Assembly: GCA_003218135.1 (NCBI GenBank)
Contig: QHNQ01000013.1
Coordinates: 1 to 46,186 of the forward strand
Length of the DNA stretch: 46,186 nucleotides
Source: Verrucomicrobiota bacterium
GTDB lineage: Bacteria; Verrucomicrobiota; Verrucomicrobiia; Chthoniobacterales; UBA10450
Direction: 5' to 3'
Part shown: positions 14,796 to 46,186 of the stretch, in pieces
How the letters are laid out: every line of letters begins with the position of its first letter
Position numbering within the stretch: position 1 is the first letter of the stretch
Notes under the pieces: generated by a model
The model's input: the letters and a program-made list of their open reading frames with translations, nothing else
The model's database searches: none
Told to the model about the DNA's origin: nothing
Position numbers and translations under genes: made by a program

Positions 14796-15341
14796 GTGTC
14801 GATCGTCACTAAGACAGGTGACAAAGGCGAAACGTCGTTGATGTATGGGCGGCGCCTTTCGAAAGCCGATCCGCGCGTTGACGCTTACGGCTGTATCGAT
14901 GAGCTGACCGCCGCGCTTGGTCTCGCTCGGTCCCTTTCAACCGACAAATTCATTTCGGACGAAATTTTCGCTGCACAAAAGGATCTGATCGTTGTCATGG
15001 GCGAACTGGCAACCGCGCCCGGCGACCGTAAACGTTACGTCAAAGATGGCTTTCAGCTCACCACAGCGGAGATGGTTGACAGGGTAACAGCGGCCATTTT
15101 CGAGCTCGAGAAAGACAAATCGCTTTATCCCAAGGACTGGGTGATTCCCGGCGGAACCAAAGTTTCTGCGGCTCTCGATTTTGCCCGAACGTCATGCCGG
15201 CGCGCAGAGCGGCACATCACCGCATTCAGCTCAGGAGAGGACGAGTTTAATCCGGAGATTCTGCGTTACCTCAATCGGCTTTCGGATTTCTGCTGGATTC
15301 TCGCAAGATACGCCGAGAAACGCTCACTAACGTCTGGTTAG
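14796..15341 (+). CDS. cob(I)yrinic acid a,c-diamide/cobalamin adenosyltransferase, PduO type
   Basis: The 181-aa product matches the PduO/CobA2 ATP:cob(I)alamin adenosyltransferase family. The N-terminal ATP-binding signature reads TKTGDKGETSLMYGRRLSK, followed by DAYGCIDELTAALGLAR. The C-terminal region with RTSCRRAERH and LNRLSDFCWILARY carries the expected Arg/Asp-rich active-site helices. The enzyme transfers the adenosyl group of ATP to cob(I)alamin to make coenzyme B12. The start appears to be GTG at 14796, ten bases after a REP-like element. It sits between rpoC and rpsB with no metabolic link visible. Confidence 0.92.
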   Translation: MSIVTKTGDKGETSLMYGRRLSKADPRVDAYGCIDELTAALGLARSLSTDKFISDEIFAAQKDLIVVMGELATAPGDRKRYVKDGFQLTTAEMVDRVTAAIFELEKDKSLYPKDWVIPGGTKVSAALDFARTSCRRAERHITAFSSGEDEFNPEILRYLNRLSDFCWILARYAEKRSLTSG

Positions 15342-40538: not shown

Positions 40539-42377
40539 CTACGTCGGATTTGTTTTTACAGGCAAATCTTTGCCAATTGTCTTCTTGGTTCCTTCGATTT
40601 TCTCCGCAAGATTTTTGTTTTTCGGATCCAGTGCCAGCGCCTTCTGCCATGATTCCAATGCCTCCGGAACACGATTCAATTTCAAATAAGTGTCGCCGAT
40701 ATGTTCGAAGATCACCGGATCGTCGTGTTCCGTCCCTTTTGCAGCACGAAGCAGATTGCCGAGCGCTTGATCAAATTTGCCCTTGCGAAATTCAACCCAA
40801 CCGAGGCTGTCCAGATACGAGGCGTTGTTGGGTTCTTTCTCCATCGCGCGCTTAATCATGGTTTCAGCTTCATCAAGGTTCATGTTGTGGTCTGCCCACA
40901 TGTAACCGAGATAATTGCAAGCCTCTGCCGAATTGGCCGGATCGAGCGCGATTGACTTGCGGAGCAACTCAGCCGCTTTTTCGTACAAGCCAGCTTGCTC
41001 GGCCGCCGCTCCGTAGTTGAAATAAAACTTGGCATTTATTACGTCGTTGTCCTCGTCAAGTTGCGCTTCGTGCAACGCCTCTTCAAAAGTCGCCACGGCT
41101 TGCTGGCTCTGCTTGGCCTCGCGCTGAGCAATCGCCAGATAGTAAACAATCTCCGGCGCGCCGGGAAATCGGCGCCGGGCTTCTGCCAATAATTGCACGC
41201 CGCGGGCTGCATTTTTCAAAGGTCCAAGAAGCAACTCCGCCAAATGCAGATAGGTGCCGGGATGATTTGGATTGATCAACAGACTTTGCTCATAATTCGC
41301 GGCGACTTTTGCAAACTTCGCTTTTGCTTCCTCGATGCGGTTTGCCCGCTGCAGGGATCGCGCTTCATCATCCAGTACCTGTGCCAGTAAATCGTAGGGT
41401 TGATATTTGTCCGGATGCTCCTTGATGATCTGCTCGAGCATCTCGATGGCTTTGTCGCGCTGGTTTGTAAGGATAAAACCAGTCGCCAGTTTCTCGCGCG
41501 CATTTGCATCCTCCGGCTGCAGTTCCAGAACGCGCAAATACAGCGGTATCGCTTCCTTCAATTGCTGGGACGCAGCATAATAGTCGGCCACTTCCTTGAG
41601 AATCGTTGGATCGTCTCCGGCGTGTTCGACTGCTCGTTTGAATATATCGTTGACCTTTTTTAGTTCGTCCGGTTTCGGCTGCGAATCAGACTTGAAAAGA
41701 ATCGCCACATAAAGCTTCCCAACTTGCATCCAGAAAGTGGGATCGTTACTGCGAACTTTTGTGGCGCGCTCGAGAACTTCGAGTGCCTTCTTCTCCTGGC
41801 CGGCTGCAACTTCAATTTCGACCAGGCGCTGGTACGCGTCTGCGTCTCCCGGATTCAGGGCGATGGCGCGATTGGCATAATCGATGGCTTGGTCCGTTTT
41901 CTTCAGGTACTTCGCGTAGATGTAAGCGAGTTGCTGATACGGCCCGGCATCAGTCGGGTTTGCTTTGATTGCGTCTTTCAGCACGTCAATTGCCTGTGGA
42001 AAATCGTCGTCCTGTATTAGCAAACCCGCCACACGCGAGGCGAGTTGCGCCTGGCCGGGATCGACATTGAGCACCTTCCGATACACATCCAACGCGCGGT
42101 CCAGTTCGCCATTTTCTTCGAACGCCATTCCTTCGACAAAATGCGCGAGCGCGCCAGCCTTGCGGTCGCCGCCTGCACGCAAAACGAGGTCTGCAGCCGG
42201 TTTTGAATTGAGCGAATCATCCTGGCGCCCACTTTGTTTCGCCTGGCGCGAACGAGGAATTTTTGCCGACGAACTTCTCGTCGTTGGCTCGGCAAGTGCA
42301 TTTGCCAGCGCGAGAAAAATAAGCGCGAGAACAAATCCCCGGCAGACGGCAACTCCGCGCTTTATGCGCTCCCTCAT
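40539..42377 (-). CDS. exported TPR repeat protein
   Basis: The 612-aa product starts with a signal peptide (residues about 12-29, GFVLALIFLALANALAE). After a Ser/Arg-rich linker, about fifteen TPR units run from about residue 70 to the end (GELDRALDVYRKVLNVDPGQAQLASRVAGLL; ATKVRSNDPTFWMQVGKLYVA; LLRAAKGTEHDDPVIFEHIGDTYLKLNRVPEALESW). An N-terminal Cys in AVC of the leader is not a convincing lipobox. It is expected to act in the periplasm or outer membrane as a protein scaffold. It lies in a minus-strand run with the permease and the other TPR gene. Confidence 0.87.
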   Translation of the reverse strand: MRERIKRGVAVCRGFVLALIFLALANALAEPTTRSSSAKIPRSRQAKQSGRQDDSLNSKPAADLVLRAGGDRKAGALAHFVEGMAFEENGELDRALDVYRKVLNVDPGQAQLASRVAGLLIQDDDFPQAIDVLKDAIKANPTDAGPYQQLAYIYAKYLKKTDQAIDYANRAIALNPGDADAYQRLVEIEVAAGQEKKALEVLERATKVRSNDPTFWMQVGKLYVAILFKSDSQPKPDELKKVNDIFKRAVEHAGDDPTILKEVADYYAASQQLKEAIPLYLRVLELQPEDANAREKLATGFILTNQRDKAIEMLEQIIKEHPDKYQPYDLLAQVLDDEARSLQRANRIEEAKAKFAKVAANYEQSLLINPNHPGTYLHLAELLLGPLKNAARGVQLLAEARRRFPGAPEIVYYLAIAQREAKQSQQAVATFEEALHEAQLDEDNDVINAKFYFNYGAAAEQAGLYEKAAELLRKSIALDPANSAEACNYLGYMWADHNMNLDEAETMIKRAMEKEPNNASYLDSLGWVEFRKGKFDQALGNLLRAAKGTEHDDPVIFEHIGDTYLKLNRVPEALESWQKALALDPKNKNLAEKIEGTKKTIGKDLPVKTNPT

Positions 42378-42412
42378 GACTGACTTTACCTTTCGCTCAC
42401 TCCGTCCGCAAT

Positions 42413-42519
42413 GTCATCCCGAGCGTAGCGAGGGACCTCTAACAGGTCGAATGACTACGCTGCTTACCCCGCGTGACCTAAACTTCGTGGGCGAGGTCCC
42501 TCACTTCGTTCGGGATGAC
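42413..42519. repeat. inverted pair of GTCATCCCGAGCGTAGCGAG-type repeats
   Basis: Left copy: GTCATCCCGAGCGTAGCGAG plus GGACCT (42413-42438). Right copy: AGGTCCCTCACTTCGTTCGG plus GATGAC (42494-42519), the near reverse complement. The pair could form a long hairpin between the 34-codon gene and the TPR gene. Confidence 0.75.
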
Positions 42520-42525
42520 CCGCAT

Positions 42526-42831: not shown

Positions 42832-43276
42832 TCAGGCATCTGCATCCCAGTGCTCGGCAATCTTGCCGTCCTGCACTCGAAACATATCAAATCCGAGCGC
42901 TTGCTTGTGCTGCCCGTCATGACTCGTCCATGTGTGCCGCACATAGACCACAACCATGTCGTTGTCGCCAACGACATTTAGCAACTCGCGCTTGTAGTCT
43001 GGCGGAAGTTTTTGGGCGAATCGCTCGCGAAATGTATCCATGAACCCCTTTAATCCAGTCGGCACATTTGGGTTGTGCTGGATATAGTCGGCGCGCAGAA
43101 AATTGCGGCGCCGCGTCGACCTGCCGGTTAATGAGCACAGTTGTGTAGAAGTCGCGGACGAGGGCTTTGTTGCGCGCGGTCAACGCGTCATCAGCCAAAA
43201 CCGTCTGCGCGAGGCCCAGGCATATAAATACCATTGTCCATGCAAACCTGTTCACTGTGATGGTTCGCATATTCAT
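42832..43276 (-). pseudogene. SnoaL/NTF2-like exported protein, frameshifted
   Basis: The start at 43276 (MNMRTITVNRFAWTMVFICLGLAQ) gives a signal peptide and DALTARNKALVRDFYTTVLINRQVDAAPQF. There the frame is lost. The rest, LRADYIQHNPNVPTGLKGFM to HWDADA, is in another frame ending at 42832. The join is at CAATTTTCTG: one T fewer restores one continuous reading frame. The combined product is a typical SnoaL-like cone fold, with the pocket sequence AHWDADA at the end. It may be an inactive gene or an assembly indel. It lies downstream (minus strand) of an attC-like relic at 43312-43434. Confidence 0.82.
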
Positions 43277-43311: not shown

Positions 43312-43434
43312 TGTCTAACGAGAACGAGATAAGCCACGGCAGGGTGTCGTTGCAAACTCACTGAACTTATTCCGTAATCGGGCCAGCCTGCTCGCGAATG
43401 CTTTCGGAGTTGGCTTCGAGTGAAGCACGTAAAC
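43312..43434 (-). other. degenerate attC-like site, relic
   Basis: The left arm GTCTAACGAGAACGAGATAA, then GCCACGG, matches the arms at 45635 and 46113. GTTGGCTTCGAG (43409-43420) fits the opposite inner arm. The outer core reads GTAAAC (43429-43434) where GTTRRRY is expected, so it is not an intact core. Total about 123 bases, against 126 for the complete copy. It sits just after the M28 gene's stop and before the SnoaL-like gene. Confidence 0.5.
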
Positions 43435-43457
43435 GTAGAACGTTCTTTGATTGCTTC

Positions 43458-45137
43458 TCAATGACCGCGTGAGGCGGAGCCTTTTACGCGGAATTCTCTG
43501 CCCGCTTTCCATTCCGGAAATTTGTCGCCGTTCGCGACTTGGTAACCGACTTCGAACAGAAGTTGAACATCCTGCACGGCTCCCGAGAGGTCCCAGGCGG
43601 GATCAACTTGGTCGGACGGCTGGTGGTAATGTTTCGCGGTGTATTCGTCGCGCTTCTGTTTGCCGTACTCCGGCGGTTTGCCGATGATCTCAACGCCGCG
43701 AGCTGCGTGCAGCGCGGGCACGCCGGCCTTGGCAAATTCGAAACTATCGACGCGGTAGAAGCCGCCTTTCTCCGGTTCGCTGTTCGGCTTCAGCACGCGC
43801 CCCTGTCGCCCCGCAGCCTGGCCTAGCAAATCGTCCAGGGTTGAATTGCCATCGGTGAGATCTTCGACGTCGCGCGATTTACCCCACGGATTTACGCCGT
43901 CGATGTTGATGTCCGCGAGCGTTTTCTCCACCGGATAGAGCGGATGTTGTGTGTAGTATTTTGCGCCGAGCAATCCCGCTTCCTCCGCTGTCGTTGCCAT
44001 AAATAACACCGAGCGCTTGGGCGGCGGATTCAATTTTGTAAACGCGCCGCCGAGCTCGATCACTGATGCCACACCCGATGCGTTATCGATCGCACCATTA
44101 AAAATCTGATCGCCTTGTAATTCGGGATGCCGCCCGAGATGGTCCCAGTGCGCGGTGTAGATAATGTATTCACCGTTTAATTTTGGATCGCCGCCTTCGA
44201 GTTTGCCGATGACATTGTGCGATTTGAACGAGCGAATCTGCTGTTTGATCTCGATGTATGCAGTGGCCTTCAGCGACACGGGGCGGAACTCTTTTGTGAG
44301 CGCCGATTTCTTCAGCGCGTCGAAGTTCTGACCGCAATCGGCCAGTAATTTCTTCGCGGTGTCGAGTGTGATCCACGACCGGGCTTCCACCGTGTCCATG
44401 TTCTTGTTCGGATTATCGAGCTCGAAGTTTTCCTTGCCCCAGCTCGATCTCACCACCTGCCACGGATAAGCCGCTGGTTCGGTTTCGTGAATGATGATTG
44501 CTGCGGCAGCGCGTTTTTGCGCTGCGATTTCGTATTTGTAGGTCCAGCGGCCATAGTAGGTCATCGCTTTTCCCTTAAACATTTTTTCGTCGAGTTTTGA
44601 TGGATCCTTGGGGTCCGGGACCGGCGGATCGCCGATCAGCATCAGCAACGTCTTGCCGCGCACATCGACATTTTTGTAATCGTCCCATCCATACTCCGGC
44701 GCGACGATCCCATAGCCGACAAAAACGACGTCCGAATTGTCGACGCTGATCTCGGGTCGAAGACGCGCCGACGAGGCAACGAAGTCGTCGGGGTATTTCA
44801 GCTCGGTTATTTTGTCTCCAATGGCGAACGACATCTTCGGTTCGCCTCTGATGCCGGCGAGAGGAACTTCCTGCGTGTATGTCCCGTCAGGGTTTCCCGG
44901 TTTTAACCCGATCTTTTTGAATTGATCGTTAATGTATTTCACCGAGAGCTCTTCGCCTTTTGTCCCCGGTGCGCGCCCTTCGAATTCGTCCGACGCAAGA
45001 ACTTTGATGTGCGCAAGGAGACCGTCCGGCGTGATCGCCTCAAGCGCGGGTTGCAAACGCTCCGTCAATTCATCAGTTGCAAGGAGCGACGCCGCGGCGG
45101 CGAAAACGATCGCGAGTAACAAGCGCGAAATTTTCAT
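43458..45137 (-). CDS. M28 family metallopeptidase, exported
   Basis: The 559-aa product has a signal peptide (about 4-20), then an N-terminal region with [28 protein letters not shown] (the M28 lid/start motif). A protease-associated (PA) domain lies at about 135-290. The M28 catalytic domain has dizinc ligands TAHWDH (His 330), GAIDNASG (Asp 351), [10 protein letters not shown] (catalytic/ligand Glu 385/386), NIDG (Asp 413) and KHYHQPSD (His 505). It is probably an aminopeptidase or carboxypeptidase of the periplasm or outside. It lies 37 bases downstream of the HIT-like gene, so the two may be co-transcribed. Confidence 0.95.
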
Positions 45138-45174: not shown

Positions 45175-45636
45175 CTATCCCGCGATCATGCTCGACGTGA
45201 GCCGGGTTCGAATCTTTTCAAAAGTCTCATCGCTGTGCATACCGGTAATTGGCTTCCGAAACGTTCGGCGTGCCCAGTCCATGAGCCGCGGGCCAGATAT
45301 CTCGGTATCTTCCGGGTGAGCACGGGAATACGAGAACAGCAACCATTCGGATCGAGGAAACAGGTGAAAGTGGACCGAGCGCGTCTCTTCTGCGAAAAGC
45401 GCGCAGTAAACACGTTGCGGGTGAACGACAGCTTCAATCGCCCGAGTGGCCGCCACGAGTGTCGCGCCTAGTGCAGATTGGGCGTCAGGAGAGAGCTCGG
45501 CAAGCGAAGAGACCGGCACGCGCGGACTGACGATCAAGTAACCAGGGATCGGACAACTCGCACACGGCTCGATGCGAAAGTGAGCGTTCACGAAGATGTT
45601 TCGCTTTGCGATTGGCTCAGCGCCCACGGGAGTCAT
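45175..45636 (-). CDS. HIT-like superfamily protein
   Basis: The 153-aa product has [29 protein letters not shown] (about 25-53) and VHFHLFPRS (88-96). The latter resembles the histidine triad HxHxH region, but only two of the His remain (89 and 91; Phe at 93). A nucleotide hydrolase or transferase role is possible but catalysis is uncertain. Its ATG overlaps the attC-like core GTTAGAT (the start reads GTTAGATG), a position typical of the first codon of an integron cassette. The M28 gene follows with no attC-like site in between. Confidence 0.72.
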
Positions 45637-45760
45637 CTAACGAGAATGAGATCAGCCACCGCTCTGGAAGCGAGGCTGCGCTACAGTTGAGAATACACTA
45701 ATCAAGATCGACATCGGCGCGCAACGCCAAAGAGCGGTTGGCTGCAGCGATTGGTTAGGC
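45635..45760 (-). other. attC-like recombination site (integron cassette junction), complete
   Basis: The outer cores are ATCTAAC (45635-45641, fits RYYYAAC) and GTTAGGC (45754-45760, fits GTTRRRY). Inner arms CAGCCACCGCTCT (45653-45665) and AGAGCGGTTGGCTG (45731-45744) are near-complementary, with one base unpaired. The total is 126 bases, in the range of long attC sites. It lies 15 bases after the stop of the small exported-protein gene and overlaps the start of the HIT-like gene, the expected order for minus-strand cassettes. Confidence 0.7.
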
Positions 45761-45775
45761 GATTTGGGTAGCATC

Positions 45776-46111
45776 TCAGTCAGTGGGGATCAGCTGCATC
45801 GTCTCAACAGAACCTGGCACTATGACCCAGTGACCATCCTTCTTGCGCGCTGTAAACGAAACTATAGTATCTCTCGGCCATTGTGGCTGCGCACTCTGTG
45901 CGCCGACTTCATCTGGCTTGTTGGCATAGATGCTGTGCACACCTCTGTGAAGACCGCTGCCGGTAAATGGGAGCGCAGCGATCTGCTGGATGTCCTCGCG
46001 AGTAAGGCGAGCAGCATATGGTCCGCTGACCTCCGGCGCCGCATAGGAAGCGCAGGAGGTGAATACGACCGTGACGAACGAAATCATCAGAGTCGTGACG
46101 TGTGCGCTCAT
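45776..46111 (-). CDS. small exported protein (possible lipoprotein), likely integron cassette gene
   Basis: The 111-aa product begins with a signal peptide (MSAHVTTLMISFVTVVFTSC). The Cys at 20 gives a candidate lipobox FTSC, but Phe at -3 is unusual; cleavage later at SYAA is an alternative. The mature part is not recognised: a helical section (ARLTREDIQQIAALP) is followed by strands with DTIVSFTARKKDGHWVIVPGS. The gene starts two bases from an attC-like core (GTTAGGCGATG) and ends 15 bases before a second attC-like site, so it fits one integron cassette. Confidence 0.65.
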   Translation of the reverse strand: MSAHVTTLMISFVTVVFTSCASYAAPEVSGPYAARLTREDIQQIAALPFTGSGLHRGVHSIYANKPDEVGAQSAQPQWPRDTIVSFTARKKDGHWVIVPGSVETMQLIPTD

Positions 46112-46112
46112 C

Positions 46113-46186
46113 GCCTAACGAGACACAAGATCAGCGACCGCACGGACTAGAAGTGACGCTCGCATGCTCTCAAATCTAAGCAAAAG
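46113..46186 (-). other. attC-like site, cut by window end
   Basis: GCCTAAC (46113-46119) followed by GAGACACAAGATCAGCGACC matches the arm of the site at 45635 in core and spacing. The partner arm would lie past the window edge. Confidence 0.55.

Follow-up and report, generated by a model that had tools for sequence, protein, structure and literature searches.

A complete attC site and a mosaic HIT-like gene at the edge of an apparent integron cassette array in a Verrucomicrobiota genome

Results

Features of the locus

The window analyzed here is the whole of contig QHNQ01000013.1 (46,186 nt; C45 of source genome G000) in assembly GCA_003218135.1 of a Verrucomicrobiota bacterium (Chthoniobacterales; family UBA10450), a MAG that is 87% complete with 3% contamination. 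The features described are on the minus strand and, reading inward from the contig end, are the R' half of an attC site (46113 to 46186), a gene encoding 111 aa (45776 to 46111), a complete attC site (45635 to 45760), a HIT-like gene encoding 153 aa (45175 to 45636), an M28 peptidase gene (43458 to 45137; Pfam PF04389, E = 4e-41), a decayed attC site (43313 to 43426), a frameshifted SnoaL-like gene (42832 to 43276), and a TPR-repeat gene (40539 to 42377). An attC is a recombination site at which small gene cassettes are excised and inserted by an integrase. The M28 gene, a resident chromosomal gene at the far edge of the array, has its nearest named relatives in soil MAGs labeled 'Verrucomicrobia bacterium AV...', 'Chthoniobacterales', and 'Spartobacteria', and the TPR-repeat gene, which adjoins M28 in many relatives, forms a conserved chromosomal flank.

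The complete attC site

The earlier note had described a 126-base imperfect palindrome with outer cores and inner arms at 45635 to 45760, and this description was exact to the base. On the minus strand, from 45760 to 45635, the left half reads GCCTAAC (R'')-CAATCGCTGC-AGCCA (L'')-A-CCGCTCT and the right half reads AGAGCGG-TGGCT (L')-GATCTCATTCTC-GTTAGAT (R'), the inverted terminal cores RYYYAAC and GTTRRRY being present as GCCTAAC and GTTAGAT. The placement relative to the genes was also as previously described: 15 bases separate the stop codon of the 111-aa ORF from R'', and the last two bases of R', as GTTAGAT(G), are the AT of the start codon of the HIT-like gene, the next ATG.

The covariance check that had been proposed for this site was made with a model, R2, built from 31 attC sites that were all taken from genomes other than the source genome, because circularity was to be avoided. 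Model R2 matched 45635 to 45760 with 82.3 bits (E = 1.9e-19), and model R1 matched it with 97.1 bits, whereas the runner-up R2 scores in the 46 kb were 20.0 bits, for the decayed attC at 43313 to 43426, and then 16.8 bits. This last match (14865 to 14931, E = 0.016) lacked valid cores and was taken as a chance match. No match to the site was found in Rfam at gathering thresholds. The main site, whose spacer is 4 bases, was not picked up by a search pattern that required a spacer of 5.

In the 31 non-source sites, it was found that the arm pairs contained 35 both-side changes, compared with 8.2 in shuffled alignments, and none of 500 shuffles equaled this value; 95.5% of the pair cells were standard pairs. 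The covariation signal was lost when the arms were slid by 1 to 3 columns, and a 17-site alignment that included the window site gave a similar result. Between the stem and L'', a single unpaired base was resolved; it was invariant in all 31 sites (alignment A2, column 23), as expected of an extrahelical base. Free-energy folding of the single site was modestly better than that of shuffled sequences (z of about -2).

The array at the contig end

A search for further copies of the arm had also been suggested. The right half of a second attC, ending ...GCGGTCGCTGATCTTGTGTCTCGTTAGGC, lies at 46113 to 46186, where it is cut by the contig end (truncated R1 match of 20.3 bits), and GCTGATCTTGTGTCTCGTTAG was also found on contigs C206 and C1. 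The start codon of the 111-aa gene is offset by +1 from the R' of this preceding attC, and the encoded protein has an N-terminal segment resembling an export signal and no Pfam or NCBIfam match. With attC sites at both 45635 to 45760 and 46113 to 46186, the window therefore contains one whole cassette, that of the 111-aa gene. This bears out the suggestion that a cassette array has its edge at this locus; the array leaves the contig at its end, and assemblies are expected to break contigs inside attC repeats.

At least two attC sites are present within about 4 kb (45635 to 45760 and 46113 to 46186, in addition to the decayed site at 43313), and no integrase is nearby: there is no intI in the 46-kb window and no intact one in the assembled genome. 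By annotation standards the locus is a CALIN because intact IntI is absent from the assembled genome, which has only attI and a 41-codon remnant. We infer that the array is part of an integron with a decayed or unassembled intI, leaving the CALIN.

attC sites elsewhere in the source genome

Using R1 at E <= 0.001, we found 21 matches on ten contigs of the source genome (C1, C6, C21, C41, C45, C87, C107, C112, C167, and C206). An ORF ended within the tested distance before R'' at 17 of the 21 sites (a fraction of 0.34 for random positions); many stop codons lie inside R'' (the TAA of yyTAAC), and several ATG codons overlap R' (GTTAGATG). The genes between tandem attC copies differ and are mutually unrelated. 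The earlier note had held that copies of the repeat not following gene 3' ends would speak against an attC; the opposite was found, and this objection is therefore removed. Given the 3% contamination, misbinning of the other attC contigs is possible in principle, yet all family members sampled have such sites. A closely similar 96-base attC subfamily was observed on several contigs, at loci L043 (1398 to 1493 and 1010 to 1105), L044 (92 to 187), and L048 (13 to 108 and 612 to 707), and also in other family genomes (e.g., L215 and L229), like a homogenized chromosomal-integron repeat.

Integrase and attI

The search for an IntI integrase that the earlier note had called for gave a divided result: the 87%-complete assembly holds no intact IntI, and it does hold attI sites and a 41-codon remnant of intI. 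No match to a functional intI above the cut-off was found in the source genome, and the long matches on C109 and C144 were rejected as IntI because they are of the XerC/XerD type. The attI sites, which match that of genome G038, are on C167 and at the end of C55, with none in the window itself. On C167 (L043), a 73-base attI at approximately 1838 to 1909 (within 1838 to 1971) is followed by three attC cassettes; it closely resembles the attI of G038 in both sequence and layout, with a chromosomal gene adjoining in place of intI. On C55 (L051, 4200 to 4592), 41 codons of intI, 66 to 76% identical over 41 residues to the IntI of several relatives, are present with attI, and the contig stops precisely at G|TT, the crossover point of attI; a first cassette that differed within the population would be expected to give such a break.

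Among family genomes, 33 of 83 contain an IntI above the curated TIGR02249 cut-off, compared with none of 14 control genomes. Complete canonical IntI-attI-attC integrons are present in sister genomes. The G038 IntI aligns with the solved Vibrio IntI4 over 312 residues (E = 6.5e-89), and G038 has the canonical divergent layout attC-attI-intI. A strong or repeated palindrome was seen in the attI region upstream of intI at L157, L153, L158, and L170 (ACCCAAAAATTGGG occurring twice in L157, and GAATTATT...AATAATTC in L153), which is possibly an operator or a part of the attI architecture.

The HIT-like gene

It had been proposed that both genes next to the complete attC were captured as cassettes. 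This holds for the 111-aa exported-type gene, which has attC sequence on both sides, and not for the HIT-like gene, which is mosaic and has no attC on its 3' side, where the M28 gene begins 37 bases on. Because no attC follows the gene, it is not a simple complete cassette, and we rejected its classification as an ordinary one.

A HIT cassette located between two attC sites in another member of the genus (G055:C170, L134) was 68 to 71% identical to the HIT-like gene of the window. The two share the junction of R' and ATG, GTTAGATGA(C/T)TCC, and are joined in a tree. In other genus members, a chromosomal HIT homologue lies in an M3-HIT-DUF4442-methyltransferase-M28 neighborhood that is without attC (the names DUF4442 and methyltransferase were read from the ORFs by eye). 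In a phylum-wide HIT search, the matches beyond the family were all weak and remote.

At the sites that separate the two types, the ratio of cassette-like to native-like states was 46:20 before nt 351 and 5:30 after it, and none of 500 permutations was as extreme. Thus, the first ~350 nt of the gene are of the cassette type and the last ~110 nt are of the chromosomal type, and a purely chromosomal gene is disfavored by this test. The M3 peptidase was considered as a flank on the opposite side of the locus and set aside: the far side of the array is unplaced because the only M3 peptidase match in the source assembly is distant (31%).

The region downstream of the M28 gene

The decayed attC at 43313 to 43426 has an intact L'/R' half that ends in GTTAGAC and has lost R'' (R1, 34.5 bits, E = 1e-6; R2, E = 0.0023). 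It is followed by the SnoaL-like gene, which consists of two overlapping frames, with a SnoaL_2 match in the second half (E = 1.4e-9), and is probably a dead cassette. These two features suggest that the M28-TPR spacer also took in cassettes; in the M28-TPR neighborhood of relatives, the model found no good attC.

An attI-like motif of about 40 bases, GGATTAGAC...GGTCTAATTCTCGTTAGRC, was found directly after the M28 stop codon in several relatives (L053, L054, L056, L058, L063, and L080), with the window equivalent near 43458. It reads GATTGGATTAGACGGAATTTTTxGxTCTAATTCTYGTTAGRY and is followed by unrelated short sequences that differ among relatives. The motif is a possible cassette entry point lacking an integrase. 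A short stretch of the window after M28, at 43315 to 43512, has a translation (FYVYVLHSKP) similar to the beginning of a GIY-YIG domain and runs into the decayed attC, and a similar FYVYG stretch is found at the matching place of L061. A dispersed repeat, CATCCCGAACGAAGTGAGGGACC... (translating as HPERSEGP), is present at 42400 to 42520 and is common to the relatives L053 and L058.

Prevalence in the family

All 83 sampled family genomes contained attC sites (R1, E <= 0.001), from 1 to at least 42 per genome, whereas in the 286 sampled Verrucomicrobiota genomes outside the family, matches at E <= 1e-4 were found in 13. The sites of near-complete family genomes form small, scattered clusters; for example, G039 (100% complete) has 25 attC sites on nine contigs and no IntI match at E <= 1e-30.

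Discussion

The results make it very probable that 45635 to 45760 is an attC with all the sequence features of a working site and that it marks the downstream limit of an array continuing beyond the contig. In the established integron mechanism, the bottom strand of an attC folds into a hairpin through R''/R' and L''/L', with an unpaired base between arm segments. By analogy, the bottom strand of this site, which is the plus strand of the window, would fold into such a hairpin, and an IntI tyrosine recombinase would bind the folded site and cut between the G and TT of the R' core; the preceding gene, for the 111-aa exported-type protein, could then be cut out in circular form or integrated at an attI. 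That recombination occurs at this site is what the known systems lead us to infer.

The palindrome is intergenic and between co-oriented genes, and another dispersed repeat is present in the same contig, as might be expected of a transcription terminator or a REP-like element that carries RYYYAAC and GTTRRRY ends by chance. We consider this highly improbable: in its cores, unpaired base, and arm spacing the site conforms to attC, start and stop codons are found within the cores, tandem copies enclose genes unrelated to one another, and IntI and attI are present in sister genomes. More weight is due to the view that the site is a fossil of an ancient integron whose genes are no longer mobile in the source organism, in keeping with the absence of an intact intI from the assembly, the intI remnant, the decayed attC at 43313 to 43426, and the frameshifted SnoaL gene. 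We nevertheless regard it as rather unlikely, since the cores and arms at 45635 are perfect, a full IntI is kept in 33 of 83 relatives, and the break of C55 exactly at the attI crossover would fit a first cassette that varies in the population.

The HIT-like gene is best read, from the sequence comparisons, as the last cassette of the array, which an intragenic recombination would have joined to the resident M28 locus. The comparison behind this reading comprises a single cassette homologue and some six chromosomal homologues. The location of the homologue in relatives, within the M3-HIT-DUF4442-methyltransferase-M28 neighborhood, and the chromosomal type of the 3' quarter of the gene would instead suit a resident chromosomal gene upstream of which the array was inserted at an attG-like GTT; this origin seems doubtful to us, because in its 5' ~350 nt, and exactly so at the R'/ATG junction, the gene matches the attC-flanked HIT cassette of G055, and the tree places the gene with that cassette. 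Returning to the fusion reading, we propose a wider version of it only tentatively, namely that the gene records exchange between the cassette pool and the genome, either by a cross of a cassette HIT with a chromosomal HIT or by a resident gene becoming a cassette. The attI-like site after M28 in several relatives would, in addition, make the locus a standing point of entry for cassettes where no integrase is nearby.

Integron studies have mainly concerned Proteobacteria. The presence of attC in every sampled family genome, with a full integrase in about 40%, suggests that cassettes are a general gene-exchange route in this soil lineage, and the mosaic HIT gene provides a concrete case for the old open question of how genes pass between the chromosome and the cassette pool. 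Integrons in Verrucomicrobiota have been reported previously (PMC8618304), and attC clusters lacking an integron-integrase are known as a class, the CALINs (PMC9024848, PMC8618304). In the literature, which was incompletely covered, we found no account of Chthoniobacterales or Udaeobacter integrons or of family-wide attC prevalence, which is weak evidence of novelty. A published attC taxonomy pipeline (PMC12444791) recognizes 11 taxa, Verrucomicrobia not among them, and therefore soil cassettes are not traceable to this group by it.

The site shares with the attC sites (59-base elements) of Vibrio-type sedentary chromosomal integrons the R''/L''/L'/R' arms, the RYYYAAC and GTTRRRY cores, one putative extrahelical base, the position at gene 3' ends, and a length mostly of 93 to 150, and it differs in the family-specific arm and spacer sequence (CCAAnCGCTGnAGC / GCTnAnCTnnnTCTCG). 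Unlike Vibrio chromosomal integrons, with one large array, there are few sites per cluster, and these are dispersed over the genome. As in CALINs (PMC9024848, PMC8618304), at least two attC sites occur with no integrase nearby, although the source genome keeps attI and a truncated intI, and a contig break may hide an integrase. The presence of cassettes at several chromosomal loci away from intI resembles the dispersed CALINs described in Xanthomonas (PMC12444791) and, so far as it is recounted in PMC11023631, the attG-mediated genomic cassette insertion of Loot et al. 2024; the sites described here differ in being present throughout the sampled members of one family of soil Verrucomicrobia, near-complete genomes included. 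The IntI of sister genomes is a full-length match to known IntI (TIGR02249; Vibrio IntI4, PDB 2a3v), including ALxRKYPNAxxEWxWQYVF, whereas the source genome has only the 41-codon remnant.
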